In this document: one piece after another, positions 647 to 64,000 of the stretch | Position numbering within the stretch: the stretch's first letter is position 1 | How the letters are laid out: every line of letters starts with the position of its first letter | Assembly: GCA_963965975.1 (NCBI GenBank) | Contig: OZ014414.1 | Location: 744,001 to 808,000 of the forward strand | Reading direction: 5' to 3' | Length of the DNA stretch: 64,000 nucleotides | Origin: Xestospongia bergquistia | Taxonomy: Eukaryota; Porifera; Demospongiae; Haplosclerida; Petrosiidae | Position numbers and translations under genes: made by a program | The notes under the pieces: model-generated | The model's input: the letters and a program-made list of their open reading frames with translations, nothing else | Database searches by the model: none | Told to the model about the DNA's origin: nothing

Positions 647-1813
647 ATGCAGTCTGAAAGCTTTGTTTTTCTTTTGTTGTTTACCCTAATACTTATTATA
701 CCAGTCTGTTGTTCATCTACTTGTATGGCTGACTGTACTAGTGAACTAACTCAACATCCTCCCTCACTCTATGAACAATATTGTTGTAATGACAATAACA
801 CTGAAAAGACTTTCAAGATAAGACAAAATAATGTTTTAAAAATAATATTTTGTTCAGATAATTCCCCGATATCTTGTGAAATGTATCGTACTTTCCTTAA
901 TTGTCCAGATATTTTCAAACATAACAGATCTGCTCTATCTGGGTACTACACAATGCGAGCTCCTAATGGTTCCTTAATATCTGTCTACTGTGACCTTTCT
1001 TTTCTTAGTTGCTCTCAGATTCTCCATGTGAACAGCTCAGCCACATCAGGTTATTACACAATACAAGCTCCTAATGGTTCTCATATATCAGTCTACTGTG
1101 ATATGGAGGGTAGTAACTGTGATGGTAAGGGAGGCTGGATGAGAGTGGGTTACATCAATATGAGTGAACATGGTGCTACCTGCCCTCCTGGACTAACATT
1201 ACATCAGTATAATAACATTGATCATGGTTTGTGTAGTCGACCAGTCTCATCATCTGGTAGCTCAGCTTCAGTATTCTTCTCCACATATGGAGTTATTTAT
1301 AACAAAGTATGTGGACGAGTTATAGGATATCAGTATGAGTCACCTGATAGTTTTCCACCAAACTTAGGGGGTGGATATCTTTATAATCCAAATATTGATA
1401 ATATTTATGTTGATGGTGTGTCTATTACATATGACAATAATCCTCGTAAACATGTATGGACATTAGGAGTGGGTTGGGTTGCTGACAATGCTATCGTCTA
1501 TTCACTTTCTTGTCCATGTAATATTAATAATACAGAAACAACAGTACCAAGTTTTATTGGCAGTAATTATTACTGTGAATCAGGAATAGCTAGTGGATAT
1601 CCGAACAGTGTCCTGTATGCTAATGACCCATTATGGGATGGACAACAATGTGGAGGACTAGAAGGACCATGTTGTACTAACTTTAAGATGCCATGGTTTA
1701 TAAAGACACTCAATGAGACTACTACTGAAGATATTGAATTGAGGGTAATGGCAGATGAAGGTACCAATAATGAAGACATACCATTAGATATTATAGAACT
1801 GTACATTCACTAA
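647..1813 (+). CDS. Secreted half-fibrinogen module protein (class A, C1 type)
   Basis: A single open frame of 388 residues from ATG 647; an in-frame ATG at 626 would add 7 residues before the signal peptide. Residues 1-24 form a hydrophobic signal peptide ending PVCCSS. A class A cysteine domain follows (about 25-84, PPSLYEQYCCNDNN...KIIFC...SC). Two half-fibrinogen modules come next (about 85-115 and 116-151, each ending NGS.ISVYC), then a C1 C-terminal domain from CDMEGSNCDGKGGWMRVGY to the end, DIIELYIH. There is no transmembrane or GPI-type tail, so it is probably secreted. N-glycosylation sequons are frequent. The first module matches the opening of fibrinogen-related and intelectin proteins, but the rest of the fibrinogen fold is absent. 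Function is unknown; lectin-like binding is a guess. Confidence 0.85.
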   Translation: MQSESFVFLLLFTLILIIPVCCSSTCMADCTSELTQHPPSLYEQYCCNDNNTEKTFKIRQNNVLKIIFCSDNSPISCEMYRTFLNCPDIFKHNRSALSGYYTMRAPNGSLISVYCDLSFLSCSQILHVNSSATSGYYTIQAPNGSHISVYCDMEGSNCDGKGGWMRVGYINMSEHGATCPPGLTLHQYNNIDHGLCSRPVSSSGSSASVFFSTYGVIYNKVCGRVIGYQYESPDSFPPNLGGGYLYNPNIDNIYVDGVSITYDNNPRKHVWTLGVGWVADNAIVYSLSCPCNINNTETTVPSFIGSNYYCESGIASGYPNSVLYANDPLWDGQQCGGLEGPCCTNFKMPWFIKTLNETTTEDIELRVMADEGTNNEDIPLDIIELYIH

Positions 1814-2021
1814 TATACAATAACGTACTGTCCTTTTGATGATTGAAATGGATTAAAATTTTAGTTCATTTGAAATCAATGTACAATAACAACATTATAT
1901 TGTATTGCTGTCTTTAGTTGATATTGTTTTCATTCTTAAAATAATATATAATTGACTGTTTAGTCAATTATATATAAGTCAAGATACAAAACCTTTTATT
2001 TGTATTATAGTTGGATCACCC

Positions 2022-3171
2022 ATGCAGTCTGAAGGCTTTGTTTTTCTTTTGCTGTTTACTTTACCATAATACTTATTATACCAGTCTGTTGTTCATCTAC
2101 TTGTATGGCTGACTGTACTAGTGAACTAACTCAACGTCCTCCCTCACTCTATGAACAATACTGTTGTAATGACAATAACACTGGAAAGGCTTTTAAGATA
2201 AGACATAATAATGTTTTAAAAATAATATTTTGTTCAGATAATTCCCCTATATCTTGTGAAATGTATCATACTTTCCTTAATTGTTCAGATATTTTCAAAC
2301 ATAACAGATCTGCTATATCTGGATACTACACAATGCGAGCTCCTAATGGTTCCTTAATATCTGTTTACTGTGATGACAATGCCTTTAACAATTGTTCTCA
2401 AGTCTTTAAAGAGAACAGTTCAGCTCTTTCTGGGTTTTACACAATGCGAGCTCCTAATAGTTCTCTTATATTAGTTTATTGTGATATGGAGGGTAGTAAT
2501 TGTGATGATAAGGGAGGTTGGATGAGAGTGGGCTACATTAACATGAGTGAACCTGGTGCTACTTGTCCAAGTGGTCTAAACAGTTATTTTTTTTCAAATA
2601 TTAATTATCCACTTTGTGATCGAACTCATCCTTTAAACAGTGGTTGTAATTCCACCATTTTTTCTACATTTGGTTTCAACTATTCTCAAGTATGTGGGCA
2701 AGTAAGAGGGTACCAGCTTGGGAATGTTGATGGTATTTATGATAACAATGGTGGATCTCCTTCACTTGAAGGGGCATATGTTGATGGTGTGTCTATTACT
2801 TGTGGTAGTAACCCTCGTCATCATATTTGGACATATATAGCAGGGCAAAGAGAAACTGGTCAAACTCAAGAAGCTTGTCCTTGTAACGATGGCAGTATAG
2901 AGACTACACCACAATATGTTGGCGATGACTACTATTGTGAGTCTGGCTCTCCTGTGTTTGAGTCTTATACATTCCACTATGATGATCTGCTTTGGGATGG
3001 CAAACAATGTGACTACTTAGAGACTCCATGCTGTACATCTCCTAACATGCCATGGTTTGTCAAGTCCCTTAATCAATCAACTACTGATGATATTGAACTA
3101 AGATTGTGTACCAGTGAAGATATCCTGATGAAGCTACTCCAGTAGATATAATTGAGTTGTATGTTCATTAA
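2022..3171 (+). pseudogene. Class A / C3 family gene, broken in signal peptide and tail
   Basis: The ATG at 2022 opens the usual class A signal peptide, but a 5-bp insertion near 2058-2064 brings a stop at 2067. The frame resumes as an open stretch from 2105 to 3145 without a signal sequence. It has the class A N-domain, two half-fibrinogen modules and a C3-type C-terminal domain (GLNSYFFSNINYPLCDR..., VCGQVRGYQLGNVDGIYD). Near 3115-3122 a 1-bp deletion replaces the usual YPDEATPVDIIELYVH end with DILMKLLQ; the ancestral stop would be at 3169-3171. The same tail frameshift occurs in the inverted relative at 43831-45078. The gene would be secreted only if translation or splicing bypasses the insertion, which I do not see. 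Confidence 0.75.
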
Positions 3172-3507
3172 GTTATGTTATTGATAATTTCATTGTCTTT
3201 TCAGTTTTAGTATAATTGCTGCTTTATTTGAACATGTACATAATTAATTAGTAGTTATAAAGTGTTTTTTTGTATAATACAACTGATAACACTCAGACCC
3301 CTTCAGTGGCCAAAAATTCAACAATATGTAATTGATATTTATGGCCACACCACCTGATACTCTATCCTCTGGAATGCTGTTTCCATAGTGACAACATAGC
3401 AACTCTGCAAAGTATTCAAATTACCAGCATATTAAACTTCATTTTGTTGATATCATTATTAGTTCTGTCAGTACAGAATTACTGTACATGTGAATATTTT
3501 AAGGAAA
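3172..3507. other. Intergenic spacer, repeated inverted at 43,487-43,800
   Basis: No gene is seen. The spacer is nearly identical in reverse to the one between the minus-strand genes at 42,396-43,468 and 43,831-45,078. Gene order is the same there, so spacer and flanking genes were copied as one inverted block. Confidence 0.7.
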
Positions 3508-4965
3508 ATGGTAAACTATATAACCTTTGCTGTTTTTTTCCTATTATGCAGGATTGTTCTCACAGATATTGTTGATGTCAAAGTTTACCCACCTCCATGC
3601 GCATCCTTAAAATGTAGTCCTGATCTATTCTACTCTATGACAAACCTGTCTGAGATGCAGTTTCCTTCTTATAATAACAATATTACTTGCATTGCATTTG
3701 GTAAGGGGTATGTGAACAATGGTATTAATTTCTATGCATCGCAAACATGTGCTGATATCTCTGACGAGTGTCATAACAACTTTAATCCTAACAACAAAAT
3801 ACTAGGACAGCTACAAGAGATATCACAGTTTATAGATATTTTTAACTCTGCATTTTCCAACTGCTCTGATGTCTTTCAAAAAAACACTTCATCTCCCTCT
3901 GGCTACTACACAATGCAAGCTCCTAATGGCTCCTTAATATCTGTCTATTGTGATGACAATGCCTTTGACAACTGTTCTCAAGTCTTTAAAGAAAACAGTT
4001 CAGCTGTATCTGGGTACTACACAATGCGAGCTCCTAATGGTTCCTTAATATCTGTCTACTGTGATGACAATGCCTTTGACAACTGTTATCAAGTCTTCAA
4101 AGAAAACACTTCATCTCCCTCTGGCTACTACACAATAAGAGCTGTGAATGGTTCCTTAATATCTGTCTATTGTGACCTTTCTTTTATTAATTGCTCTCAG
4201 ATTCTCAATGAATACAGTTTTGCTCCATCAGGTTATTACACAATACAAGCACCTAATGGTTCTCTTATATCAGTCTATTGCGATATGGAGGGTAGTAACT
4301 GTGATGGTAAAGGAGGTTGGATGAGAGTGGGCTACATCAATATGAGTGAATCTGGTGCTACTTGTCCTCCTGGTTTGACACAACAACAATATAATAACAT
4401 TGATCATGATGTGTGTGGTCTTCCTAACTCTGGTAAGTTTAGTCATACATTCTTCTCTACTCAAGGAATCGGTTACAGTAATGTGTGTGGTCAACTAAGA
4501 GGGTACCAGTATCGATCTCCTGATGCATTTTATGGCAATAACATTGACTCCTGTTATGTTGATGGTATTTCTATCACATATGGTAGTAGTCCACGTAAAC
4601 ATATTTGGACATATGTAGGTGGTTTAACTTCTGATAATGTGCCCTTCCCATCTCATTGCTGTCCATGTAATAGTAATAATAATGCATACAAACCAAATTT
4701 TATTGGAGATGACTATTATTGTGAATCAGGCATTCCTGCTGGAGTAAACAATTGGCAACATGTCTTATATGTCAATGACCCATTATGGGATGGACAACTA
4801 TGTGATGGAAATGAAGGACCTTGTTGTACTAACCCTAAGATGCCATGGTTTATAAAGACACTTTCAGAGATTACCACTGAAGATATAGAACTAAGGGTAT
4901 GTGCAAATCAAGATTATCCTGATGAAGATACTCCCTTGGATATTATTGAGCTTTACATACGATAA
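3508..4965 (+). CDS. Secreted half-fibrinogen module protein (class B, C2 type)
   Basis: 485 residues from ATG 3508; an upstream in-frame GTG is unlikely to be used. The signal peptide is MVNYITFAVFFLLCRIVLTD. The class B N-domain (about 21-120) differs from class A: it has VYPPPCASLKCSPDLFYS, YVNNGINFYASQTC and a helical-looking stretch ILGQLQEISQFIDIFNSAFSNC. Four half-fibrinogen modules follow, two of them in DDNAFDNC form, then a C2 C-terminal domain (GLTQQQYNNIDHDVCGLPNSG..., SPRKHIWTYVGG) ending DTPLDIIELYIR. An inverted, truncated copy lies at 42,396-43,468, and its second half resembles the gene at 35,080. Secreted; binding function unknown. Confidence 0.85.
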   Translation: MVNYITFAVFFLLCRIVLTDIVDVKVYPPPCASLKCSPDLFYSMTNLSEMQFPSYNNNITCIAFGKGYVNNGINFYASQTCADISDECHNNFNPNNKILGQLQEISQFIDIFNSAFSNCSDVFQKNTSSPSGYYTMQAPNGSLISVYCDDNAFDNCSQVFKENSSAVSGYYTMRAPNGSLISVYCDDNAFDNCYQVFKENTSSPSGYYTIRAVNGSLISVYCDLSFINCSQILNEYSFAPSGYYTIQAPNGSLISVYCDMEGSNCDGKGGWMRVGYINMSESGATCPPGLTQQQYNNIDHDVCGLPNSGKFSHTFFSTQGIGYSNVCGQLRGYQYRSPDAFYGNNIDSCYVDGISITYGSSPRKHIWTYVGGLTSDNVPFPSHCCPCNSNNNAYKPNFIGDDYYCESGIPAGVNNWQHVLYVNDPLWDGQLCDGNEGPCCTNPKMPWFIKTLSEITTEDIELRVCANQDYPDEDTPLDIIELYIR

Positions 4966-5464
4966 TTGCTTTACTTTTTTCTTTAATAGAGTATGTACTA
5001 GTTTGTATACACTTGATACTTAATATAGACATCACTTGTTAGAACTATATTAACTGGCAGTCATCTTATAAAACCTGAAACTATATATTTAACTTTACTA
5101 CATGTTCATACAATTTGAAATATCTTTTTTTGTGACTGAAAAATTTTGATTTTATAAACATAGATGTTTAAATATTACTATTATTATGTTACTATTATAT
5201 AGTACTGCTGATAAACAATAGGTGTGGTCAAGTGGGTTAATCTATTCCAAGTTTTGTTTGCTTTCTTTCTTTTGTTTTTGTTTTGTTTTGTTGTCTTTAG
5301 TATATTAACAATATATTTTTTTACACCTGCTGATATGTTTATGTATTACTGAAAGTCTTTGTAAAGACAAAGGGTCAATACAAAGACTGTAATATTGCTC
5401 ACCCTTTCATTCTCGTTCATTTGTGACTTTGAATAAATAATTATAATAGCAGTTTTGATCATCA
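4966..5464. repeat. Intergenic block present three times
   Basis: No gene is seen. The block recurs at 36,430-36,934 in direct orientation and at 51,491-52,002 inverted, each time between a C2-type gene and the same broken fragment. It includes a T/G-rich stretch (near 5255-5295) and a short hairpin around AAAGTCTTTGTAAAGAC (5353). Confidence 0.65.
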
Positions 5465-15222: not shown

Positions 15223-16506
15223 ATGCAGTCTGAAAGCTTTGTTTTTCTTTTGCTGTTTACCCTAATACTTATTATACCAGTCTGTTGCTCATCTACTTGT
15301 ATGGCTGACTGCACTAGTGAACTAACTCAACGTCCTCCCTCACTCTATGAACAATACTGTTGTAATGACAATAACACTGGAAAGACTTTCAAGATAAGAC
15401 AAAATAATGTTTTAAAAATAATACTTTGTCCAGATAATTCCCCTATATCTTGTGAAATGTATCGTACTTTCCTTAATTGTTCAGATATTTTCAAAAATAA
15501 CAGATCTGCTCTATCTGGGTACTACACAATGCGAGCTCCTAATGGTTCCTTAATATCTGTCTACTGTGATGACAATGCCTTTGATAACTGTTCTCAAGTC
15601 TTTAAAGAAAACAGTTCAGCTCTTTCTGGATACTACATAATGCGAGCTCCTAATGGTTCCTTAATATCTGTCTACTGTGATGACAATGCCTTTGATAACT
15701 GTTCTCAAGTCTTTAAAGAAAACAGTTCAGCTCTATCTGGATACTACACAATGCGAGTTGCTAATGGTTCTCTTATATCTGTCTACTGTGATGTGGAGGG
15801 TAGTAACTGTGATGGTATAAGAGGCTGGATGAGAGTGGGCTACCTCAACATGAGTGAACCTGGTGCCACATGCCCTCCTGGACTAACATTACATCAATAT
15901 AATAACATTGATCATGGTCTATGTAGTCGACCAGTCTCATCATCTGGTAGTTCAGCTTCAGTATTTTTCTCTACATATGGACTTATTTATAACAAAGTAT
16001 GTGGACGAGTGATAGGATATCAGTATAGGTCACCTGATGGTTTTCCACCAGAGTTAGGGAGTAGAGTTTTAATTAATAATCCAAATATTGATAATATTTA
16101 TGTTGATGGTGTATCTATTACATATGGCAGTAATCCTCGTAAACACATATGGACATTAGGAGTGGGTAATGTCGCTGATGATACTAGTCCTAATCAATAT
16201 AATTGTCCATGTAACACTGGTAACACAAAAACAACTGTACCAAGTTTTGTTGGCAGTAATTATTACTGTGAATCAGGAATAGCTAGTGGAAGTTTCAACA
16301 GTGTCCTGTATGCTAATGACTCTTTATGGGATGGACAACAATGTGGAGGATTAGAAGGACCATGTTGTACTAACCCCAAGATGCCATGGTTTATAAAGAC
16401 ACTTAATGAGACTACTACTGAAGATATTGAATTGAGGGTAATGGCAGATGAAGATACCAGTAATGAAGACATACCATTAGATATTATAGAACTGTACATT
16501 CGCTAA
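15223..16506 (+). CDS. Secreted half-fibrinogen module protein (class A, C1 type)
   Basis: 427 residues from ATG 15223 (MQSESFVFLLLF...). The open frame runs further upstream only from a TTG and would bury the signal peptide, so 15223 is preferred. Three half-fibrinogen modules follow the class A N-domain, two of them DDNAFDNC repeats of 37 residues. The C1 domain begins CDVEGSNCDGIRGWMRV, with Ile-Arg where relatives have Lys-Gly. Its variable loop before CPCN is GNVADDTSPNQYN, shared only with the fragment at 56,950. The 5' flank with MITE is repeated 3 kb downstream before the broken gene at 18,237, so the two are tandem duplicates. Confidence 0.85.
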   Translation: MQSESFVFLLLFTLILIIPVCCSSTCMADCTSELTQRPPSLYEQYCCNDNNTGKTFKIRQNNVLKIILCPDNSPISCEMYRTFLNCSDIFKNNRSALSGYYTMRAPNGSLISVYCDDNAFDNCSQVFKENSSALSGYYIMRAPNGSLISVYCDDNAFDNCSQVFKENSSALSGYYTMRVANGSLISVYCDVEGSNCDGIRGWMRVGYLNMSEPGATCPPGLTLHQYNNIDHGLCSRPVSSSGSSASVFFSTYGLIYNKVCGRVIGYQYRSPDGFPPELGSRVLINNPNIDNIYVDGVSITYGSNPRKHIWTLGVGNVADDTSPNQYNCPCNTGNTKTTVPSFVGSNYYCESGIASGSFNSVLYANDSLWDGQQCGGLEGPCCTNPKMPWFIKTLNETTTEDIELRVMADEDTSNEDIPLDIIELYIR

Positions 16507-24077: not shown

Positions 24078-25250
24078 ATGAAGTTTGAAAGCTTTGTTTT
24101 TCTTTTGTTCTTTACCTTAATACTTATTATACCAGTCTGTTGTTCCTCTACTTGTATGTCTGACTGTACTTGTGAACTAACTCAACATCCTCCCTCACTT
24201 TATGAACAATATTGTTGTAATGACAATAACACTGGAAAGACTTTCAAGATAAGACAAAATAATGTTTTAAAAATAATATTATGTCCAGATAATTCCCCTA
24301 TATCTTGTGAAATGTATCATACTTTCCTTAATTGTTCAGATATTTTCAAACATAACAGATCTGCTATATCTGGATACTACACAATGCGAGCTCCTAATGG
24401 TTCTTTAATATCTGTCTACTGTGATGACAATGCTTTTAACAACTGCTCTCAAGTCTTCCAAAAAAACAGTTTAGCTCTATCTGGGTACTACACAATGCGA
24501 GTTGCTAATGGTTCCTTAATATCAGTGTACTGTGATATGGAGGGTAGTAACTGTGATGGTAAGGGAGGTTGGATGAGAGTGGGTTACATCAACATGAGTG
24601 AACCTGGTGCTACCTGTCCTCCTGGACTAACATTACGTCAGTATTATAATAATATCAATCATGGTCTATGTAGTCGACCATTTTCATCATCTGGTAGTTC
24701 AGCTTCAGTATTCTTCTCTACATATGGAGTTAATTATAACAAAGTATGTGGACGAGTGATAGGATATCAGTATGGGTCACCTGATGCTTTTCCACCACAC
24801 TTAGGGGGTTATGTTCTTAATAATTCAAATATTGACCACAATTATGTTGATGGTGTATCTATTACATATGACAATAATCCTCGTAAACATGTATGGACAT
24901 TAGGAGTAGGTAGTTTTGCTGACTATGCTGATTTTTATATTTTTAGTTGTCCATGTAATATTAATAATAATGAAACAACTGTACCAAGTTTTGTTGGCAG
25001 TGATTACTACTGTGAATCAGGAATAGCTAGTAGAGATTGGAGTTGTGTCCTGTATGCTAATGATCCATTATGGGATGGGCAACAATGTGGAGGATTAGAA
25101 GGACCATGTTGTAATAACACCAAGATGCCATGGTTTATAAAGACACTCAATAAGACTACTACTGAAGATATTGAATTGAGGGTAATGGCAGATGAAGCTA
25201 CCAGTAATGAAGACATACCATTAGATATTATAGAACTCTACATTCGCTAA
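24078..25250 (+). CDS. Secreted half-fibrinogen module protein (class A, C1 type)
   Basis: 390 residues. The signal peptide is MKFESFVFLLFFTLILIIPVCC, and the class A N-domain has one extra Cys (DCTCELTQ). There are two half-fibrinogen modules (the second DDNAFNNC) and a C1 domain with loop SFADYADFYIFS before CPCN. It ends DIIELYIR. All structural Cys of the family are kept. The upstream region lacks the promoter inverted repeat shared by other class A genes, so its expression may differ. Confidence 0.85.
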   Translation: MKFESFVFLLFFTLILIIPVCCSSTCMSDCTCELTQHPPSLYEQYCCNDNNTGKTFKIRQNNVLKIILCPDNSPISCEMYHTFLNCSDIFKHNRSAISGYYTMRAPNGSLISVYCDDNAFNNCSQVFQKNSLALSGYYTMRVANGSLISVYCDMEGSNCDGKGGWMRVGYINMSEPGATCPPGLTLRQYYNNINHGLCSRPFSSSGSSASVFFSTYGVNYNKVCGRVIGYQYGSPDAFPPHLGGYVLNNSNIDHNYVDGVSITYDNNPRKHVWTLGVGSFADYADFYIFSCPCNINNNETTVPSFVGSDYYCESGIASRDWSCVLYANDPLWDGQQCGGLEGPCCNNTKMPWFIKTLNKTTTEDIELRVMADEATSNEDIPLDIIELYIR

Positions 25251-35079: not shown

Positions 35080-36429
35080 ATGCAGTCTGAAAGCTTTGTT
35101 TTTCTTTTGCTGTTTACCTTAATACTTATTGTACCAGTCTGTTGTTTATCTACTTGTATGGCTGACTGTACTAGTGAACTAACTCAACGTCCTCCCTCAC
35201 TCTATGAACAATATTGTTGTAATGACAATAACACTGGAAAGACTTTTAAGATAAGACAAAATAATGTTTTAAAAATAATATTTTGCTCAGATAATTCCCC
35301 TATATCTTGTGAAATGTATCGTACATTCCTTAATTGTACAGATATTTTCAAACATAACAGATCTGCTCTATCTGGGTACTACACAATGCGAGCTCCTAAT
35401 GGTTCCATAATATCTGTCTACTGTGATGACAATGCTTTTGACAACTGTTTTCAAGTCTTTAAAGAAAACAGTTCAGCTCTATCTGGGTACTACACAATGC
35501 GAGCTCCCAATGGTTCCTTAATATCTGTCTACTGTGATGACAATGCCTTTGACAACTGTTCTCAAGTCTTTAAAGAAAACAGTTCAGCTCTTTCTGGGTA
35601 CTACACAATGCGAGCTCCTAATGGTTCCTTAATATCTGTCTATTGTGACATTTCTTTTTTTAATTGCTCTCAGATTCTCAATGAATACAGTTTTGCTCCA
35701 TCAGGTTATTACACAATACAAGCACCTAATGGTTCTCTTATATCAGTCTACTGTGATATGGAGGGTAATAACTGTGATGATAAGGGAGGTTGGATGAGAG
35801 TGGGCTACATCAATATGAGTGAATCTGGTGCTACTTGTCCTCCTGGTTTGACACAACAACAATATAATAACATTGATCATGATGTGTGTGGTCTTCCTAA
35901 CTCTGGTAAGTTTAGTCATACATTCTTCTCTACTCAAGGAATCGGTTACAGTAATGTGTGTGGTCAACTAGGAGGGTACCAGTATCGATCTCCTGATGCA
36001 TTTAATGGCAATAACATTGACTCATGTTATGTTGATGGTATTTCTATTACATATGGTAGTAGTCCACGTAAACATATTTGGACATATGCAGGTGGTTTAA
36101 CTTCTGATAATGAGGGAAGTTGTTGTCCATGTAATAGTAATAATTGTGGATATAAACCAAATTTTATTGGAGATGACTATTATTGTGAATCAGGCATTCC
36201 TGCTGGAGTAAACGATTGGCAACATGTTTTATATGTCAATGATCCATTATGGGATGGACAACTATGTGATGGAAATGAAGGACCTTGTTGTACTAACCCT
36301 AAGATGCCATGGTTTATAAAGACGCTTTCAGAGATTACCACTGAAGATATAGAACTAAGGGTATGTGCGGATCAAATTTATCCCGATGAAGATACTCCCT
36401 TGGATATTATTGAGCTTTACATACGATAA
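35080..36429 (+). CDS. Secreted half-fibrinogen module protein (class A, C2 type)
   Basis: 449 residues from ATG 35080 (in-frame ATG also at 35059). It has the class A signal peptide and N-domain, four half-fibrinogen modules (two DDNAFDNC, then DISFFNCSQILNEYSFAPSG) and a C2 domain ending DTPLDIIELYIR. From about 35,640 the sequence follows the gene at 3508-4965, while the front half follows class A genes. It is therefore a mosaic of the two, and its junction is the left edge of the 6.6-kb duplication. Confidence 0.87.
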   Translation: MQSESFVFLLLFTLILIVPVCCLSTCMADCTSELTQRPPSLYEQYCCNDNNTGKTFKIRQNNVLKIIFCSDNSPISCEMYRTFLNCTDIFKHNRSALSGYYTMRAPNGSIISVYCDDNAFDNCFQVFKENSSALSGYYTMRAPNGSLISVYCDDNAFDNCSQVFKENSSALSGYYTMRAPNGSLISVYCDISFFNCSQILNEYSFAPSGYYTIQAPNGSLISVYCDMEGNNCDDKGGWMRVGYINMSESGATCPPGLTQQQYNNIDHDVCGLPNSGKFSHTFFSTQGIGYSNVCGQLGGYQYRSPDAFNGNNIDSCYVDGISITYGSSPRKHIWTYAGGLTSDNEGSCCPCNSNNCGYKPNFIGDDYYCESGIPAGVNDWQHVLYVNDPLWDGQLCDGNEGPCCTNPKMPWFIKTLSEITTEDIELRVCADQIYPDEDTPLDIIELYIR

Positions 36430-42227: not shown

Positions 42228-42400
42228 TATTTACTGTATTATAACATAAAATGTAGTGTAGTTCATTATGTCTGAAAGTATTTTTCTTATTTCTGTTGTT
42301 AGAATAAATAAGAGATGAATATTGTTAGAATAAATGAGATGAATTCTGTTCAAAGTATTTGGGTTCACCAAGTAAATTATAAGTCTACCCATATTTTACG
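42225..42400. other. Junction between the right-pointing and left-pointing arrays
   Basis: About 175 bp match nothing else that I can see in the window. They separate a cut caspase exon from the cut 3' end of a minus-strand family gene. A near-tandem GTTAGAATAAAT(A)AGAGATGAAT occurs at 42,299 and 42,325. This is filler DNA at a rearrangement breakpoint, or a trace of what lay there before. Confidence 0.7.
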
Positions 42401-43468
42401 TAATAGAAATACCATCAACATAACAAGAATCAATGTTATTGCCATTAAATGCATCAGGCGATCGATACTGGTACCCTCTTAGTTGACCACACACATTACT
42501 GTAACCGATTCCTTGAGTAGAGAAGAATGTATGACTAAACTTACCAGAGTTAGGAAGACCACACACATCATGATCAATGTTATTATATTGTTGTTGTGTC
42601 AAACCAGGAGGACAAGTAGTACCAGGTTCACTCATATTAATGTAGCCCACTCTCATCCAGCCTCCCTTACCATCACAATTACCACCCTCCATATCACAGT
42701 AGATTGATATAAGAGAACCATTAGGTGCTTGTATTGTGTAATAACCTGATGGAGCAAAACTGTATTCATTGAGAATATAAGAGCAATTAATAAAAGAAAG
42801 GTCACAATAGACAGATATTAAGGAACCATTCACAGCTCTTATTGTGTAGTAGCCAGAGGGAGATGAAGTGTTTTCTTTGAAGACTTGATAACAGTTGTCA
42901 AAGGCATTGTCATCACAGTAGACAGATATTAAGGAACCATTAGGAGCTCGCATTGTGTAGTACCCAGATACAGCTGAGCCGTTTTCTTTAAAGACTTGAG
43001 AACAGTTGTCAAAGGCATTGTCATCACAATAGACAGATATTAAGGAACCATTCAGAGCTCGCATTGTGTAGTAGCCAGAGGGAGATGAAGTGTTTTCTTT
43101 AAAGACTTGAGAGCAGTTGGAAAATGCAGAGTTAAAAATATCTATAAACTGTGATATCTCTTGTAGCTGTCCTAGTATTTTGTTGTTAGGATTAAAGTTG
43201 CTATGACACTCGTCAGAGATATCAGGACATGTTTGCGATGCATAGAAATTAATACCATTGTTCACATACCCTTACCAAATGCAATGCAAGTAATATTGTT
43301 ATTATAAGGAGGAAACTGCATCTCAGACAGGTTTGTCATAGAGTAGAATAGATCAGGACTACATTTTAGAGATGCGCATGGAGGTGGGTAAACTTTGACA
43401 TCAACAATATCTGTGAGAACAATCCTGCATAATAGGAAAAAAACAGCAAAGGTTATATATTTTACCAT
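42396..43468 (-). pseudogene. Class B / C2 gene, frameshifted and 3'-truncated
   Basis: Inverted counterpart of 3508-4965. From the ATG at 43468 it has the class B signal peptide and domain, but one G is missing from the GGGG run (43269-43271), which stops the frame at GKGM. The second frame runs from NNGINFYASQTC through four modules and a C2 domain to SCYVDGISIT, where homology ends at about 42,401 and TAA follows at once. The last ~130 codons are missing. The G-run change could be a base-calling error; the truncation could not. Confidence 0.85.
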
Positions 43469-43830: not shown

Positions 43831-45078
43831 CTACTGGTGTAGCTTCATCAGGATATCTTCACTGGTACACAATCTTAGTTCAATATCATCAGTACTTGAT
43901 TGATTAAGGGACTTGACAAACCATGGCATGTTAGGAGATGTACAGCATGGAGTCTCTAAGTAGTCACATTGTTTGCCATCCCAAAGCAGATCATCATAGT
44001 GGAATGTATAAGACTCAAACACAGGAGAGCCAGACTCACAATAGTAGTCATCGCCAACATATTGTAGTGTAGTCTCTGTACTGCCATCGTTACAAGGACA
44101 AGCTTCTTGAGTTTGACCAGTTTCTCTTTGCCCTGCTATATATGTCCAAATATGATGACGAGGGTTACTACCACGAGTAATAGACACACCATCAATATAT
44201 GCCCCTTCAAGTGAAGGAGATCCACCATTGTTATCATAAATACCATCAACATTCCCAAGCTGGTACCCTCTTACTTGTCCACATACTTGAGAATAGTTGA
44301 GACCAATTGTAGAAAAAATGGTGAAATTACAGCCATTGTTTGAAGGATGAGGTCGATCACAAAGTGGATAACTAATATTTGGAAAAAAATAACTGTTTAG
44401 ACCACTTGGACAAGTAGCACCAGGTTCACTCATATTGATGTAACCCACTCTCATCCAACCTCCTTCATCATCACAGGTACTACCCTCCATATTACAATAA
44501 ACTGATATAAGAGAACCATTAGGAGATTGTATTGCATAATAACCTGATGGAGCAGAACTATTTTTTTGTAAAATATGAGAACAATTGTATCCATCAATAT
44601 AGTCCTCAATATTACAGTACATAAAAATAAGAGAGTGCTGAGAAAAACGTATTTTATAATAACCTGATGGAGCAGCATTGTTTTCTTGAAACACCTGAGA
44701 ACAGCTATCACCATCAATATAATTCTCTACATTACAGTAGACAAGGACTTGAGAGCCATTACTAGTTTGCATAGAGAAATATCCTGATTGTATTGGAGTT
44801 GAACTGTTTGCTTCAAAGACTTCAAAACAATTTAAAATGGTAGGAAACTTTTGACAAGAGGTAGGAAGAGTTTTTGGACAGAGAATAAATAGCAGGAAAT
44901 TATTAGTCTCTTTTAACTTAATTGTCTTTCCATTGTTGTCAGAATTACAAAAATATTGTTCATAGGGTGAGGGAGGACGTTGAGTTAGTTCATTAGTACA
45001 GTCAGCCATACAAATTGAAGAGGCATAACTGACATTGAGCAGTACAGAGAAGCAAAAGAATTGAGTAATAATCTTCAT
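43831..45078 (-). CDS. Secreted half-fibrinogen module protein (class D, C3 type)
   Basis: 415 residues from ATG 45078. The signal peptide is MKIITQFFCFSVLLNVSYASS. A class D N-domain follows, with YFCNSDNN where the relatives have YCCNSNNN, then three modules (NC.EVFEANSS, YIDGDSCSQVFQENN, YIDGYNCSHILQKNSS) and a C3 C-terminal domain. The front half matches the class D gene at 46,026 and the back half matches the class A/C3 gene at 2,022, so it is a mosaic. A 1-bp deletion shared with 2,022-3,171 gives the short tail EDILMKLHQ. All motifs up to DIELRLC are present. Probably functional with an altered tail. Confidence 0.8.
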   Translation of the reverse strand: MKIITQFFCFSVLLNVSYASSICMADCTNELTQRPPSPYEQYFCNSDNNGKTIKLKETNNFLLFILCPKTLPTSCQKFPTILNCFEVFEANSSTPIQSGYFSMQTSNGSQVLVYCNVENYIDGDSCSQVFQENNAAPSGYYKIRFSQHSLIFMYCNIEDYIDGYNCSHILQKNSSAPSGYYAIQSPNGSLISVYCNMEGSTCDDEGGWMRVGYINMSEPGATCPSGLNSYFFPNISYPLCDRPHPSNNGCNFTIFSTIGLNYSQVCGQVRGYQLGNVDGIYDNNGGSPSLEGAYIDGVSITRGSNPRHHIWTYIAGQRETGQTQEACPCNDGSTETTLQYVGDDYYCESGSPVFESYTFHYDDLLWDGKQCDYLETPCCTSPNMPWFVKSLNQSSTDDIELRLCTSEDILMKLHQ

Positions 45079-46025: not shown

Positions 46026-47324
46026 TTAGTGAATGTACAGTTCTATAATATCTAATGGTATTCGTTCATTATTGGTACCTTCATCTGCCATTACCCTCAA
46101 CTCGATATCTTCAGTAGTAGTCTCATTGAGTGTCTTTATAAACCATGGCATCTTGGAGTTAGTACAACATGGTCCTTCTAATCCTACACATTGTTGTCCA
46201 TCCCATAATAGATCATTAGCATACAGGACACTGTTCGGATGTCCACTAGCTATTGCTGATTCACAGTAATAATCACTGCCAACAAAACTTGGTACTGTTG
46301 TTTCTGCATTACCAGTATTACATGGACAATTATGTTGATTAACACTAGTATCATGAGCGACATTACCCACTCCTAATGTCCATACGTGTTTACGAGGATT
46401 ATTGTCATATGTAATAGATACACCATCAACATAAATATTATCAATATTTGGATTATAAAGATATCCACCCCCTAAGTTTGGTGGAAAACCATCAGGTGAC
46501 GCATACTGATATCCTATCACTCGTCCACATACTTTGTTAAAAATAACTCCATATGTGTAGAAGAATACTGAAGCTGAACTACCAGATGATGAGACTGGTC
46601 GACTACATAGACCATGATCAATGTTATTATACTGATGTAATGTTAGTCCAGGAGGGCAAGTGGCACCAAGTTCACTCATATTGATGTAACCCACTTTCAT
46701 CCAACCTCCTTTACCATCACAATTACTACCCTCCATATCACAATAAACTGATATAAGAGAACCATTAGGAGATTGTATTGCATAATAACCTGATGGAGCA
46801 GAACTATTTTTTTGGAGAATATGAAAACAATTGTATCCATCAATATAGTCCTCAATATTACAGTACATAAAAATAAGAGCATGCTGAGAAAAACGTATTT
46901 TATAATAACCTGATGGAGCAGCATTGTTTTCTTGAAACACTTGAGAACAGCTATCACCATCAATATAATCCTCTACATTACAGTAGATGAGGACTTGAGA
47001 GCCATTACTAGTTTGCATAGAGAAATATCCTGATTGTATTGGAGTTGAACTGTTTGCTTCAAAGACCACAGAACAATTTAAAATTGTAGGAAACTTTTGA
47101 CAAGAGGTAGGAAGAGTTTTTGGACAGAGAATGAATATCAGGAAATTATTATTCTCTTTTAACTTGATTGTCTTTCCATTGTTGTTAGAATTACAGCAAT
47201 ATTGTTCATAGAGTGAGGGAGGATGTGTAGTTAATAAACTAGTACAGTCAGTCATACAAATTGAAGAGGCATAACTGACACTAAGCAGTACAGAGAACCA
47301 AAAGAATCGAGTAATAATCTTCAT
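46026..47324 (-). CDS. Secreted half-fibrinogen module protein (class D, C1 type)
   Basis: 432 residues from ATG 47324 (MKIITRFFWFSVLLSVSYASS signal peptide); the upstream TTG is not needed. It has the class D N-domain (ICMTDCTSLLTTHPPSLYEQYCCNSNNNGKTIKL), three half-fibrinogen modules separated by YIDGD/YIDGY linkers, and a C1 domain with loop NVAHDTSVNQHN and ESAIASG. It ends RIPLDIIELYIH. This intact copy shows what the broken plus-strand gene at 26,433 once encoded. Confidence 0.87.
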   Translation of the reverse strand: MKIITRFFWFSVLLSVSYASSICMTDCTSLLTTHPPSLYEQYCCNSNNNGKTIKLKENNNFLIFILCPKTLPTSCQKFPTILNCSVVFEANSSTPIQSGYFSMQTSNGSQVLIYCNVEDYIDGDSCSQVFQENNAAPSGYYKIRFSQHALIFMYCNIEDYIDGYNCFHILQKNSSAPSGYYAIQSPNGSLISVYCDMEGSNCDGKGGWMKVGYINMSELGATCPPGLTLHQYNNIDHGLCSRPVSSSGSSASVFFYTYGVIFNKVCGRVIGYQYASPDGFPPNLGGGYLYNPNIDNIYVDGVSITYDNNPRKHVWTLGVGNVAHDTSVNQHNCPCNTGNAETTVPSFVGSDYYCESAIASGHPNSVLYANDLLWDGQQCVGLEGPCCTNSKMPWFIKTLNETTTEDIELRVMADEGTNNERIPLDIIELYIH

Positions 47325-48515: not shown

Positions 48516-49763
48516 TTAGCGAATGTAGAGTTCTATAATATCTAATGGTATGTCTTCATTACTGGTACCTTCATCTGCCATTACCCTCAATTCAATATCT
48601 TCAGTAGTACTCTCATTGAGTGTCTTTATAAACCATGGCATCTTGGAGTTAGTACAACATGGTCCTTCTAATCCTCCACATTGTTGTCCATCCCATAATG
48701 GGTCATTAGCATACAGGACACTGTTCGGATATCCACTAGCTATTCCTGATTCACAGTAATAATCACTGCCAACAAAACTTGGTACAGTTGTTTCTGTATT
48801 ATTAATATTACATGGACAAGAAAGTGAATAGACGATAGCATTGTCAGCAACCCAACCCACTCCTAATGTCCATACATGTTTACGAGGATTATTGTCATGT
48901 GTAATAGATACACCATCAACATAAATATTATCAACATTTGGATTATAAAGATATCCACCCCCTAAGTTTGGTGGAAAAGCATCAGTTGACCCATACTGAT
49001 ATCCTATCACTCGTCCACATACTTTGTTATAAATAACTTCATACGTGGAGAAGAATACTGAAGCTGAACTACCAGATGATGAGACTGGTCGACTACATAG
49101 ACCATGATCAATGTTATTATACTGATATAATGTTAGTCCATGAGGGCAGGTAGCACCTGGTTCACTCATATTAATGTAACCCACTCTCATCCAACCTCCT
49201 TTACCATCACAATTACTACCCTCCATATCACAGTAGACAGATATAAGAGAGCCATTAGGTGCTTGTATTGTGTAATAACCTGATGGAGCAAAACTGTTTA
49301 CATGGAGAATTTGAGAACAATTAACAAAAGAAAGGTCACAGTACACAGATATTAAAGAACCATTTGTGGCTCTTATCATGTAGTACCCAGATGGAGCTGA
49401 ACTGTTTTCTTTAAAGACATGATAACAGTTGGAAAATGCAGAGTTAAAAATGTTTATGAACTGTGAGATCTCTTCTAACTGGTCTAGTAGTTCACTGTTA
49501 GGATTAAAGTTATTATGACACTTATCAGAAATCTCAGAACTCTTGTGTGGTGGAGAGAATTTAATATCATTGTTCACATACGCCTTTTCAATACCATCAT
49601 TAAAAGGTAACAATTTTAAGACTCCACTCAGTGAACTGTGAAGATCGTGACCACATTTAAATGATGAAGGATAGACATCAACTAATTGTGTATAAGTTGT
49701 ATTATCTGCCAGAACAATATCAAATCCTGAAAGAAATAGAGTTATAATGAGAAAATACATCAT
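48516..49763 (-). CDS. Secreted half-fibrinogen module protein (class C, C1 type)
   Basis: 415 residues from ATG 49763. The signal peptide is MMYFLIITLFLSGFDIVLA. The class C N-domain has KCGHDLHSSLSGVLKLLP, KCHNNFNPNSELLDQLEEISQF and FNSAFSNC. There are two modules (CYHVFKENSSAPSG, NCSQILHVNSFAPSG) and a C1 domain with loop WVADNAIVYSLS, identical to the class A gene at 647. It ends DIIELYIR. It is the intact inverted partner of the broken gene at 33,066. Loop sharing with an unrelated N-class suggests recombination or gene conversion. Confidence 0.87.
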   Translation of the reverse strand: MMYFLIITLFLSGFDIVLADNTTYTQLVDVYPSSFKCGHDLHSSLSGVLKLLPFNDGIEKAYVNNDIKFSPPHKSSEISDKCHNNFNPNSELLDQLEEISQFINIFNSAFSNCYHVFKENSSAPSGYYMIRATNGSLISVYCDLSFVNCSQILHVNSFAPSGYYTIQAPNGSLISVYCDMEGSNCDGKGGWMRVGYINMSEPGATCPHGLTLYQYNNIDHGLCSRPVSSSGSSASVFFSTYEVIYNKVCGRVIGYQYGSTDAFPPNLGGGYLYNPNVDNIYVDGVSITHDNNPRKHVWTLGVGWVADNAIVYSLSCPCNINNTETTVPSFVGSDYYCESGIASGYPNSVLYANDPLWDGQQCGGLEGPCCTNSKMPWFIKTLNESTTEDIELRVMADEGTSNEDIPLDIIELYIR

Positions 49764-52002: not shown

Positions 52003-53052
52003 TTATCGTATGTAAAGCTCAATAATATCTAAGGGAGTATCTTCATCAGGATAAACTTGATTCCCACATACCCTTAGTTCTATATCTTCAGTGGTAATCT
52101 CTGAAAGTGTCTTTATAAACCATGGCATCTTAGGGTTAGTACAACATGGACCTTCATTTCCATCACATTGTTGTCCATCCCATAATGAGTCATTGACATA
52201 TAAGACATGTTGCCATCTTTGTGTATTTCCACTTATATAAGGAGGAATGCCTGATTCACAATAATAGTCATATCCAATAAAGTTTGGTTTCAATCCAGGT
52301 GCTACAGTATTATTACTATTACATGGACAGCAATAATCTGGGAAGGGCACATTATCAGAAGTTAAACCACCTGCATATGTCCAAATATGTTTACGTGGAC
52401 TACTACCATATGTAATAGAAATACCATCAACATAACAGGAGTCAATGTTATTGCCAATAAATGCGTCAGGAGATCGATACTGGTACCCTCTTAGTTGACC
52501 ACACACCTTAATGTAACTGATTCCTTGAGTAGAGAAGAATGTATAACTAAAGTTACCAGAGTTAGGAAGACCACACACATCATGATCAATGTTATTATAT
52601 TGTTGTTGTGTCAAACCAGGAGGACAAGTAGCACCAGATTCACTCATGTTGATGTAGCCCACTCTCATCCAACCTCCTTTACCATCACAGTTACTACCCT
52701 CCATATCACAGTAAACAGATATTAAGGAACCATTAGGAGCTTGTATTGTGTAGTACCCAGATATAGCAGATCTGTTATATTTGAAAATATCTGAACAATT
52801 AAGGAAAGTACGATACATTTCACAAGATATTGGTGAATTATCTGGACATAATATTATTTTTAAAACATTATTTTGTCTTATCTTGAAAGCCTTTCCAGTG
52901 TTATTGTCATTACAACAGTATTGTTCATAGAGTGAGGGAGGACGTTGAGTTAGTTCACTAGTACAGTCAGCCATACAAGTAGAGGAACAACAGACTGGTA
53001 TAATAAGTATTATGGTAGAGAGCAAAAGAAAAACAAAGCCTTCAGACTGCAT
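52003..53052 (-). CDS. Secreted single-module family protein (class A, C2 type)
   Basis: 349 residues from ATG 53052 (MQSEGFVFLLLSTIILIIPVCC signal peptide). The class A N-domain leads directly into a single half-fibrinogen module (NCSDIFKYNRSAISGYYTIQAPNG) and the CDMEG start of a C2 domain. It is the shortest architecture in the window and shows that repeats are dispensable. The loop is LTSDNVPFPDYC, with an insert NSNNTVAPGLKPN after CPC. It ends DTPLDIIELYIR. The 5' flank carries the inverted repeat and a full MITE as at 15,223. Confidence 0.87.
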   Translation of the reverse strand: MQSEGFVFLLLSTIILIIPVCCSSTCMADCTSELTQRPPSLYEQYCCNDNNTGKAFKIRQNNVLKIILCPDNSPISCEMYRTFLNCSDIFKYNRSAISGYYTIQAPNGSLISVYCDMEGSNCDGKGGWMRVGYINMSESGATCPPGLTQQQYNNIDHDVCGLPNSGNFSYTFFSTQGISYIKVCGQLRGYQYRSPDAFIGNNIDSCYVDGISITYGSSPRKHIWTYAGGLTSDNVPFPDYCCPCNSNNTVAPGLKPNFIGYDYYCESGIPPYISGNTQRWQHVLYVNDSLWDGQQCDGNEGPCCTNPKMPWFIKTLSEITTEDIELRVCGNQVYPDEDTPLDIIELYIR

Positions 53053-55645: not shown

Positions 55646-56791
55646 TTACCGAATGTACAGTTCTATAATATCTAATGGTATGTCTTCATTACTGGTACCT
55701 TCATTAACCATTACCCTCAATTCAATGTCTTCATTTGTATTCTCATTGAGTGTTTTCATAAACCATGGCATCTTAGGGTTAGTACAACATGGTCCTTCTA
55801 GTCCTCCACATTGTTGTCCATCCCATAATGGGTCGTTAGCATACAGGACACTGTTCGGATATCCACTAGCTATTCCTGATTCACAGTAATAATTACTGCC
55901 AATAAAACTTGGTACAGTTGTTCCTGTATTACCAATATTGCATGGACAACATTGTACACAAGTAGAATAATCAAACAAACCATCTCCTAATGTCCACACA
56001 TGTTTACGAGGATTATTGTCATATGTAATAGATACACCATCAACATAAATATTATCAATATTTGGATTTCCACCCACTGCAAAAGCATCAGGTGACCCAT
56101 ACTGATATCCTATCACTCGTCCACATACTTTGTTATAAATAACTCCATATGTGGAGAAAAATACTGAAGCTGAACTACCAGATGATGAGACTGGTTGACT
56201 ACATAGACCATGATCAATGTTATTATACTGATGTAATGTTAGTCCAGGAGGGCAGGTGGCACCAGGTTCACTCATGTTGATGTAGCCTACTCTCATCCAG
56301 CCTCCCTTATCATCACAGTTACTACCTTCCATATCACAATAGACTGATATATGAGAACCATTAGGAGCTCGCATTGTGTAGTACCCAGATAGAGCTGAAG
56401 TGTTTTCTTTGAAAACTTGAGAACAGTTATCAAAGGCATTGTCGTCACAGTAGACAGATATTAAGGAACCATTAGGAGCTCGCATTGTGTAGTATCCAGA
56501 TATAGCAGATCTGTTATGTTTGAAAATATCTGAACAATTAAGGAAAGTATGATACATTTCACAAGATATAGGTGAATTATCTGGACAAAATATTATTTTT
56601 AAAACATTATTTTGTCTTATCTTGAAAGTCTTTCCAGTGTTATTGTCATTACAACAATATTGTTCATAGAGTGAGGGAGGACGTTGAGTTAGTTCACTAG
56701 TACAGTCAGCCATACAAGTAGATAAACAACAGACTGGTACAAGAAGTATTAGACTAAGCAACAAAAGAAAAAGAAAGCTTTCAGACTGCAT
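55646..56791 (-). CDS. Secreted half-fibrinogen module protein (class A, C1 type)
   Basis: 381 residues from the second of two adjacent ATGs (56791; the other is 56794). The signal peptide is MQSESFLFLLLLSLILLVPVCC. The class A N-domain is followed by two modules (the second DDNAFDNC with GSHISVYC) and a C1 domain with loop LFDYSTCVQC and a shortened FAVGGNPNID segment. It ends DIIELYIR. The usual promoter flank is missing: directly upstream lies AAATGACAAAATACTTTTCTAAG, resembling the end of the GCTTAAAA MITE, so the original promoter was displaced. Confidence 0.85.
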   Translation of the reverse strand: MQSESFLFLLLLSLILLVPVCCLSTCMADCTSELTQRPPSLYEQYCCNDNNTGKTFKIRQNNVLKIIFCPDNSPISCEMYHTFLNCSDIFKHNRSAISGYYTMRAPNGSLISVYCDDNAFDNCSQVFKENTSALSGYYTMRAPNGSHISVYCDMEGSNCDDKGGWMRVGYINMSEPGATCPPGLTLHQYNNIDHGLCSQPVSSSGSSASVFFSTYGVIYNKVCGRVIGYQYGSPDAFAVGGNPNIDNIYVDGVSITYDNNPRKHVWTLGDGLFDYSTCVQCCPCNIGNTGTTVPSFIGSNYYCESGIASGYPNSVLYANDPLWDGQQCGGLEGPCCTNPKMPWFMKTLNENTNEDIELRVMVNEGTSNEDIPLDIIELYIR

Positions 56792-57568: not shown

Positions 57569-57609
57569 AGCTGAACAATTATATGCATATAAAAAGACTT
57601 TATCTTTTA

Positions 57610-58652: not shown

Positions 58653-58700
58653 TGATCAATGACATCACTACTTACTACTATGTTGTAATGTCATTGATCA
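58653..58700 (-). promoter_or_regulatory. Promoter-proximal inverted repeat (copy 7)
   Basis: Perfect arms TGATCAATGACAT (58653-58665) and ATGTCATTGATCA (58688-58700), about 130 bp upstream of the minus-strand ATG at 58521. Confidence 0.5.
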
Positions 58701-62216: not shown

Positions 62217-62955
62217 CTTTCAATATGATTCTAGAACTTTGATACAGAACTTTAATTAATCACTCGACTATTAAGGGACAAATTGCATATGGCTAACATT
62301 AGCCTCATCCACAGATCTATACACAAGAAAAAGTAGTTTTAGCTTTCATGTAGGTCTGGGGATGAGACTATACTGATTTAATTTTCTATTTTTACCTTAA
62401 TTAATGCCCCATCTCTCACAATATTTCACTACACATTATTTTTACTATCACCTAGCTAGGACAGCATACACTATGACATCAAATGTTGTGCCTTATATAC
62501 ATTACATCAAGGAGTAATGTTTTGAATATCAGAGTACAGTTATATTCTCTGTCCACATAATATCGTTTAAATTAAAATGCTCATGAAATTAATAGTAACG
62601 ACAAGCAGATGTTATTCTAATTTTCTATATTGTTTAAATTAAAATGTTCATGAGATTAATAGTAACGACAAACAGATGTTATTCTAATTTTCTATATTGT
62701 TTAAATTAAAATGCTCATGAGATTAATAGTAACGACAAACAGATGTTATTCTAATTGTCTATAATGTGATCTACACACTTTAGGAATTTGCATATATGCA
62801 TCAAAAAATGACAAAAAAATATAATTTAATTGTTGATATTTCTCTACAAGCAAATAGAGAGAGAATGCATATCTAAACACAATGTATTAAAAGATATACA
62901 ATATGTGTAAAAAAAGTATTATATACATTAATATGTAATAATACATTATTATATA
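62217..62955. repeat. Shared non-coding block with 67-bp triplication
   Basis: Reverse of about 16,507-17,350 without the GTGACC MITE. At 62,565-62,763 a 67-bp sequence (GTTTAAATTAAAATGCTCAT ... TTCTATATT) is present three times in tandem; the plus-strand copies have it once. The hairpin pair is at 62,300-62,370. No gene seen. Confidence 0.7.
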
Positions 62956-64000
62956 TTAGCGAATGTACAGTTCTATAATATGTAATGGTGTATCTTCATT
63001 ACTGGTACCTTCATCTGCCATTACCCTCAATTCAATATCTTCAGTAGTAGTCTCATTGAGTGTCTTTATAAACCATGGCATCTTGGAGTTAGTACAACAT
63101 GGTCCTTCTAATCCTCCACATTGTTGTCCATCCCATAATGGGTCATTAGCATACAGGACACTGCTCCAATCTCCACTAGCTATTCCTGATTCACAGTAAT
63201 AATTACTGCCAACAAAACTTGGTACAGTTGTTCCTGTATTATTAATATTACATGGACAACTAAATCGAGTAGCACGATCAGCAAAATTACCCACTCCTAA
63301 TGTCCATACATGTTTACGAGGATTATTGTCATATGTAATAGACACACCATCAACATAAATATTATCAATATTTGGATTATTAATTAAAACTCCACCCCCT
63401 AAGTCTGGTGGAAAACCATCAGGTGACCCATACTGATATCCTATCACTCGTCCACATACTTTGTTATAAATAACTCCATACGTGGAGAAGAATACTGAAG
63501 CTGAACTACCAGATGATGAGACTGGTCGACTACATAGACCATGATCAGTGTTATTATACTGATGTAATGTTAGTCCAGGAGGACAGGTAGCACCAGGTTC
63601 ACTCATGTTGATGTAACCCACTCTCATCCAGCCTCCCTTATCATCACAGTTACTACCTTCCATATCACAGTAGACAGATATTAAGGAACCATTAGGAGCT
63701 CGCATTGTGTAGTACCCAGATATAGCAGATCTGTTATGTTTGAAAATATCTGAACAATTAAGGAAAGTACGATACATTTCACAAGATATTGGTGAATTAT
63801 CTGGACATAATATTATTTTTAAAACATTATTTTGTCTTATCTTGAAAGCCTTTCCAGTGTTATTGTCATTGCAACAGAATTGTTCATAGAGTGAGGGAGG
63901 ACGTTGAGTTAGTTCACTAGTACAGTCAGCCATACAAGTAGATGAACAACAGACTGGTATAATAAGTATTATGGTAGAGAGCAAAAGAAAAACAAAGCTT
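62956..64000 (-). CDS. Secreted single-module family protein (class A, C1 type), 5' end outside window
   Basis: Open to the window edge; the frame begins within the signal peptide (SFVFLLLSTIILIIPVCC), so only the first few codons are missing. The class A N-domain has EQFCCND for EQYCCND. There is one half-fibrinogen module and a C1 domain with loop NFADRATRFS. It ends TPLHIIELYIR. Its front closely resembles the gene at 52,003, but that gene has a C2 back half. This pair therefore shows the exchange of C-terminal types. Confidence 0.87.
   Translation of the reverse strand, partial: SFVFLLLSTIILIIPVCCSSTCMADCTSELTQRPPSLYEQFCCNDNNTGKAFKIRQNNVLKIILCPDNSPISCEMYRTFLNCSDIFKHNRSAISGYYTMRAPNGSLISVYCDMEGSNCDDKGGWMRVGYINMSEPGATCPPGLTLHQYNNTDHGLCSRPVSSSGSSASVFFSTYGVIYNKVCGRVIGYQYGSPDGFPPDLGGGVLINNPNIDNIYVDGVSITYDNNPRKHVWTLGVGNFADRATRFSCPCNINNTGTTVPSFVGSNYYCESGIASGDWSSVLYANDPLWDGQQCGGLEGPCCTNSKMPWFIKTLNETTTEDIELRVMADEGTSNEDTPLHIIELYIR

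Follow-up and report, generated by a model that had tools for sequence, protein, structure and literature searches.

The window analysed here is a 64,000-nt stretch of the genome of the sponge Xestospongia bergquistia (positions 744001-808000 of contig OZ014414.1, referred to below as contig C4), and it lies within a tandem array of genes in which front parts (leader and N-terminal domain, classes A to D) and back parts (C-terminal domain, types C1 to C4) are joined in many combinations through a row of half-fibrinogen modules. The genome examined comprises one haplotype of 146,460,797 bp in 21 contigs (the labels C1, C4, C6, C8, C15 and C21, when given to contigs, are distinct from back types C1-C4). 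A genome-wide protein search yielded at least 124 matches, all of them on contig C4 except two on contig C1, and the main array occupies approximately 637-834 kb of contig C4, that is, roughly 200 kb. A scan of contig C4 from 610 to 848 kb revealed a complete or almost complete C-terminal domain in 44 open reading frames (ORFs), of which 37, possessing both a complete front and a complete back, were scored in the comparisons of N- and C-terminal parts, 13 of them inside the window. The seven ORFs without a complete N part (679362, 704098, 712699, 714358, 735868, 770907 and 810554, all copies being named by their contig C4 position) and fragment copies were excluded. The copies are found in both orientations, many of them inside duplicated blocks; block duplication, likewise in both orientations, is evident from 74 self-matches measuring 2 kb or more, the longest 6.9 kb (89-98% identity among the 70 self-matches listed; four represent offsets inside one repeat-rich gene).

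Each copy reads in genomic DNA as a single open frame consisting of a leader and N domain (together 83-118 amino acids), 1 to 23 modules of mostly 37 residues, and a C domain of ~230 residues. One, two, three and four modules are present in 4, 12, 12 and 4 copies, respectively, and five, six, eight, 11 and 23 modules in one copy each (n = 37). The longest row belongs to an uninterrupted copy outside the window (C4:707934-711446), with near-identical module variants recurring along it and self-matches at offsets of ~111 bp and multiples thereof; its 23 modules were counted by direct listing, a stricter pattern giving 22. Middle modules are more similar within a gene than between genes, with values of 0.971 versus 0.901 when the 23-module gene is left out and 0.936 versus 0.899 when it is included.

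The similarity of the module to the fibrinogen C-terminal domain is confined to the beginning of the latter (approximately positions 4-44 of the 221-position profile PF00147). The best score of 17.4 bits among six proteins fell under the Pfam cut-off of 22. Among 30 members, 14 matched PF00147 at E ≤ 0.1, with 0.0063 as the lowest E, and a complete fibrinogen C-terminal domain was found neither in the six proteins nor in the 30 members. No immunoglobulin (Ig) family was present among the 10 Pfam families matched by the 30 members at E ≤ 0.1, and the single Sp38 Ig match, in the 11-module copy, was also below cut-off (19.7 versus 23.1 bits). A PDB sequence search returned weak matches to intelectin and ficolin over one module and the GGW region, the strongest being to intelectin-1 (E 0.006); these stopped shortly after GGW, with none at E ≤ 1 for the rest of the C domain. 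Four families exceeded their Pfam cut-offs in the 11-module copy, namely PPR (41.8 versus 25 bits), DUF3929 (37.1 versus 25), PPR_2 (34.9 versus 30) and DUF815 (24.1 versus 23.8), and were set aside as summed chance matches over the repeats, since no single stretch passes alone; NARF, matching 3 of 30 members and always below cut-off (best E 0.0016), was also rejected. Leader hydropathy reached 1.48-2.65 in the six copies for which it is given, and the maximum beyond residue 40 was 1.37 across the 37 copies, leaving nothing strongly hydrophobic there. Overall, the array genes probably encode cysteine-rich, lectin-like proteins with predicted secretion. A short-peptide-pattern scan of prokaryotic contigs (one pattern match) and viral contigs (48) produced no confirmed homologue.

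Clustering of the 37 copies without the use of earlier motifs divided the N parts and the C parts into four clusters each, at cut-offs (0.30 and 0.22, respectively) that fall into gaps in the joining distances (0.19-0.51 for N and 0.19-0.35 for C). These clusters correspond one to one to the four front and four back classes of a previous sequence-only reading of the window, which had treated the fronts as separate classes; that part needs amendment, because A is related to D (49% amino-acid identity) and B to C (48%), forming two N superfamilies rather than four unrelated classes. Ten of the 16 possible front-by-back combinations are present: A+C1 in 18 copies, C+C1 in five, A+C2 in four, A+C4 in three, D+C1 in two, and D+C2, A+C3, B+C2, D+C3 and B+C3 in one each. 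The 13 window copies carry exactly the eight combinations listed in the earlier reading (five A+C1, two A+C2, and single copies of A+C3, A+C4, B+C2, C+C1, D+C1 and D+C3), D+C2 (C4:677485) and B+C3 (C4:832089) being added from outside the window. Classes A, B and D are each paired with both C2 and C3, and a single tree would not yield such a grid in the absence of exchange. The association between N and C class was indistinguishable from free pairing (permutation p 0.18, Cramer's V 0.34; 10 combinations observed versus 9.9 expected), in a test of low power, with 26 of the 37 copies belonging to class A.

Distances between N parts and between C parts were uncorrelated, both for all 37 copies (Mantel r 0.03, p 0.34) and within the 26 class A copies (r 0.05, p 0.32). 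In recombination-free simulations (three trees with 40 replicates each), r was never below 0.96 and 0 mosaics appeared, compared with strict mosaics among 9 of the 37 real copies at a 5% margin, a number that rises to 16 when the margin is 2%. The N- and C-terminal trees, which the earlier reading had proposed to build separately, proved incongruent: approximately unbiased (AU) tests rejected the N tree on the C part and the C tree on the N part, also within class A. The C type required at least eight changes on the 5' tree, the minimum possible being three (36 rows, copy 746033 having been excluded from this tree and from the flank correlations), and the N class required 10 changes on the C tree (37 rows), on which a single-clade constraint was rejected for each of the four N classes. 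The front/back mosaics of the array are a real signal of exchange, beyond chance.

Identity profiles of 16 pairs of copies showed abrupt changes either in the modules or at the start of the C domain. Both pairs singled out in the earlier reading behaved as described there: the genes at window positions 52003 and 62956 share 92-100% identity (60-nt windows) from -740 to +400 and 65-87% in the remaining coding part, and those at 43831 and 46026 share 85-100% from -500 to ~+50 of the C domain and 58-75% in the rest. The B+C2 copy 747463 is a mosaic. Compared with copy 832089 (B+C3) in 60-nt windows, its identity is 92-100% between -800 and the first module but 53-76% past ~+100 of the C domain; compared with copy 779041 (A+C2), it is 87-100% from the modules outward. 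Its 5' match to C4:832089 covers -1229 to 558 (95%) and its 3' match to C4:779041 covers 367 to 7291 (97%, the coding part ending at 1455), so that the shared stretches reach 1.2 kb out on the 5' side and 5.8 kb beyond the stop codon; such long-range extents are quoted for this copy only, and the matches listed for several other mosaic pairs among the nine mosaics mix neighbouring genes. In 31-nt windows over all copies, differentiation by N class stayed at 0.82-0.99 through the end of the first module. Differentiation by C type ranged from -0.07 to 0.15 between the last module and +62 nt of the C domain, rose to 0.65 at +62 and to 0.85-0.92 from +93 to +248, and then varied between 0.45 and 0.88, being lowest at the second loop. 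The view that the middle modules serve as exchange zone is thus upheld by the pair profiles, the differentiation profile and the segment correlations given below, with the zone comprising the modules after the first and the initial ~60 nt of the C domain.

Correlations of segment distances resolved two blocks, one extending from the 250 bp upstream to the first module (0.67-0.84) and the other from the C domain to the 250 bp downstream (0.59-0.89), with Spearman values of -0.06 to 0.13 across the two blocks for coding segments. The segment 250-500 bp downstream retained values of 0.17-0.34 with its own block, linkage fading over distance. The 250-bp 5' flanks of the 37 copies formed nine clusters, each of a single N class, and five of the eight multi-copy clusters (36 copies) mix C types; the 3' flanks of the same length formed 10 clusters, each of a single C type, and three of the seven multi-copy clusters (34 copies) mix N classes. 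At 601-1000 bp downstream, one cluster combines six C2 copies and one C4-type copy. The upstream 250 bp track the class of the front, and the downstream 250 bp that of the back; the half-genes have therefore been exchanged along with adjoining DNA, the outcome to be anticipated from ectopic (unequal) crossing-over. These data support the near flanks as belonging to the exchanged unit and, together with the block duplications, the array as the outcome of duplication plus crossing-over.

A further level of diversification was found inside the C domain. The pairwise homoplasy index (PHI) test detected recombination in the C part of the 25 C1 copies (0 of 1000 permutations as low), and a weak signal in the N part of class A (27 sites, p 0.027). 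Three loops of the C1 domain, with 48 codons, contain distinct changes of which 107 are nonsynonymous and 28 synonymous (ratio 1.21), compared with 114 and 86 in the other 189 codons (ratio 0.38; one-sided Fisher p 1.5e-5); the ratio for the whole C1 domain is 0.57, below 1, and all such counts can be inflated by recombination. The densest 12-codon window held 56 nonsynonymous changes versus a mean maximum of 24 after shuffling (0 of 5000 as high), a test that requires no choice of loops. The coordinates of the copies and of their parts in the window are collected in Table 1.

Table 1. Array copies and their parts within the window (window coordinates).
Feature	Position	Strand	Remarks
Copy 744608	647..1810	+	A+C1, 2 modules; ATG 647, first module 902, C domain 1103
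Variable loop HV1, C1 domain of copy 744608	1346..1397	+	approximate ends, counted by hand
Variable loop HV2, C1 domain of copy 744608	1471..1510	+	approximate ends, counted by hand
Copy 746033	2033..3142	+	A+C3; stop-to-stop frame without usual start
Copy 747463	3508..4962	+	B+C2 mosaic
Exchange zone of copy 747463	3955..4347	+	past first module to ~62 nt inside C domain; from all-copy differentiation profile and pair profiles
Copy 759172	15223..16503	+	A+C1
Copy 768054	24078..25247	+	A+C1
Copy 772456	28495..30636	+	A+C4, 11 modules
Copy 779041	35080..36426	+	A+C2
Broken B+C2 copy, C4:786399-787271	42399..43271	-	same B+C2 junction as copy 747463
Copy 787834	43834..45078	-	D+C3
Copy 790029	46029..47324	-	D+C1
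Copy 792519	48519..49763	-	C+C1
Copy 796006	52006..53052	-	A+C2, one module; 5' half resembles 806959 and 637641, 3' half resembles 747463
Copy 799649	55649..56791	-	A+C1
Copy 806959	62959..64000	-	A+C1; start codon past window end, at window position 64011

Several frames contain incomplete pieces of the family. Three C1-type fragments starting LCDMEGCNCDGKGGW (window 5484-6032 and 36943-37287, and C4:679362-680072) are neighbours of other copies and resemble relics of duplication; a layout of this kind is shared by the frames at C4:795246 and 813660. In window 10733-11563 (+), a caspase-like part (PF00656, E 9e-7, over cut-off) is fused in one frame to a C4-type C-domain fragment, and a frame of like length at C4:812087-812905, on the opposite strand, carries a C-domain fragment similarly placed. 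At L032:2450-3067 (-), a C-domain tail opens a frame that continues into a peptide resembling, by eye, a retroelement integrase. Outside contig C4, contig C21 (18,997 bp) bears a COX1 gene that reads through under mitochondrial code 4 and appears demosponge-like in sequence, and COX1-like pieces with stops at C6:3154917-3155898 and C6:3199148-3200446, on a contig of nuclear size, are probably nuclear copies of mitochondrial DNA.

Plain tandem or block duplication followed by divergence and loss, with the classes as lineages between which nothing was exchanged, has in its favour the abundance of the multi-kilobase self-matches; the incongruence of the N and C trees, the A, B and D fronts that each carry both C2 and C3, and the gap between the simulated and the observed correlations and mosaics refute it, and we regard it as practically untenable. 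The proposal of the earlier reading, exchange rather than simple duplication, is accordingly retained for its combinatorial part, with the qualification that block duplication also shapes the array. That the mosaics are assembly joins among near-identical copies could be suspected in so highly repeated a locus, and appears very improbable on several grounds: the B+C2 junction of copy 747463 recurs in the inverted, partly broken copy 786399 (a 2194-bp block of 96.3% identity), and a junction found in two places 3.7% apart must predate that divergence; three A+C2 copies share a 5' flank cluster, as do two A+C4 copies; and contig C4 is 9.8 Mb long. Gene conversion, which would shift N or C tracts with both flanks staying put, agrees with the finer-scale recombination seen by PHI within the C domain of C1 copies and with the homogeneity of middle modules within genes. 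It is nevertheless an unlikely source of the mosaics, given that the 250-bp flanks accompany the halves in all clusters, that the matches of copy 747463 run far past both coding ends, and that each tract would need to span half a gene plus its flank. The last alternative concerns function and is compatible with crossing-over: the proteins may be structural matrix components, adhesive molecules or feeding lectins, with no part in immunity or allorecognition, and their diversity a by-product of repeat instability. The module number, ranging from 1 to 23, and the whole-domain C1 ratio under 1 fit this account, which we consider a serious possibility, albeit one with the odds somewhat against it; it is countered by the persistence of many differentiated classes and by the enrichment of amino-acid variation in the three loops, where a ratio exceeding 1 points rather to diversifying selection.

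Several observations weigh against an array recombined by crossing-over and diversified for recognition. Long conversion tracts are indistinguishable from crossovers in one haplotype. One window of the N part shows 0.95 differentiation by C type, without explanation; the last module falls outside both blocks; and the segment 250-500 bp upstream correlates at 0.14-0.27 with its own block versus 0.18-0.30 with the C segments, that is, no better, and is for this reason uninformative. C1 is the only back type among the five class C copies, and A the only front class among the three C4-type copies. On the 5' tree, the C type is more clustered than under label shuffling (eight changes versus 10.6 on average, with none of 200 shuffles as low), so that pairing is not fully free; such residual clustering is as expected where near-copies share a recent origin. 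The Fisher test on the loops was not blind, as the loop windows were picked after the variation had been viewed, and the HV1-HV2 loop types of the C1 copies form 11 pairs with 0 four-gamete cycles, given which a shuffling of loop cassettes within C1 was dropped, despite the PHI signal there. As regards the proteins themselves, the class D leader is weakly hydrophobic (1.48, the lowest of the six, in one class D copy), structure models of two copies are poor (mean predicted local distance difference test scores, pLDDT, of 52.5 and 47.9), and a PDB fold search with the first model only gave 486 matches at E ≤ 10 and none at E ≤ 0.001, the ficolin-like and carbohydrate-binding-like entries among the 50 listed being given no weight.

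The array combines incongruent trees, flanks exchanged together with the halves, and breakpoints in a shared block, as in a combinatorial crossover array. In KIR and other families, hybrid genes arise by unequal crossing-over of neighbouring paralogues; the proteins encoded here are different, and the array, unlike KIR, shows many front-by-back combinations side by side in one haplotype. The fibrinogen-related proteins (FREPs) of Biomphalaria glabrata are described as Ig superfamily (IgSF) domains joined by a coiled-coil link to a C-end fibrinogen domain and as diversified by gene conversion and point mutation (PMC12074976). Judged against that description, the array genes are likewise a diversified family with a fibrinogen-related part, and of the recognition type by prediction. 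Unlike the FREPs so described, they have only the sub-cut-off half-domain, followed by a different C domain, with no Ig match over cut-off, and they are not canonical FREPs because the fibrinogen domain is incomplete. The sea urchin SpTransformer (Sp185/333) genes are clustered immune genes of two exons, exon 2 being a mosaic of 25-27 elements, and are flanked by short tandem repeats (PMC8634487). The array resembles that account in being a clustered family with shared sequence blocks in mosaic, and differs from it in that each coding part occupies a single open frame and that two half-genes with their near flanks are exchanged via a protein-module repeat. The genome also contains canonical fibrinogen_C genes (at least 151 PF00147 matches, mainly on contigs C8 and C15, none of the matches listed lying in the array), which are likewise clustered and share with the array modules the first sub-part of the domain; the start of many matches in these two clusters at about profile position 30 would be compatible with a separate exon for the first part. 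Intelectins and ficolins weakly resemble one module and the GGW region, the similarity ending shortly after GGW. Several PF00147 genes of the sponge Dysidea avara respond to microbial patterns with altered expression (PMC6208332); judged by the matches listed, canonical genes of this type constitute, in the present genome, a family different from the array genes. No paper was recognised in an open-literature search as describing the array gene family, which does not prove it undescribed; as far as the literature was searched, these genes represent a new family, and the exchange process is of a known kind.

We infer that the array has probably been diversified by germline crossing-over within the repeat. 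Because the later modules and the initial ~60 nt of the C domain are undifferentiated by class, crossing-over of misaligned paralogues is possible in the middle of the genes, and in the germline such paralogues may cross over precisely there. Each event would link the upstream DNA, leader and N domain of one copy to the C domain and 3' flank of another, and could also alter the module number; selection may subsequently favour varied C-domain loops. The C domain would bind the ligand, and the front would determine assembly or deployment. A role in the recognition of microbes or non-self has, in our estimation, about an even chance of being correct. More tentatively, and with doubt outweighing confidence, the locus may be viewed as having two slots, the upstream DNA, leader and N domain setting when, where and in what assembly a protein is used and the C domain and 3' flank setting what is bound, with the half-fibrinogen module as an in-frame track for germline crossover; individuals would then differ in their combinations, as needed for discrimination of self from non-self or among microbes.

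To our knowledge, the gene-level basis of microbe and self/non-self discrimination in sponges is poorly known. The locus offers a countable case, in which fronts with their upstream DNA and backs with their 3' flanks have been brought into new pairings at a protein repeat and three loops are enriched in amino-acid change, and it leads to the predictions that the combinations would differ among individuals and that the loops would bind.

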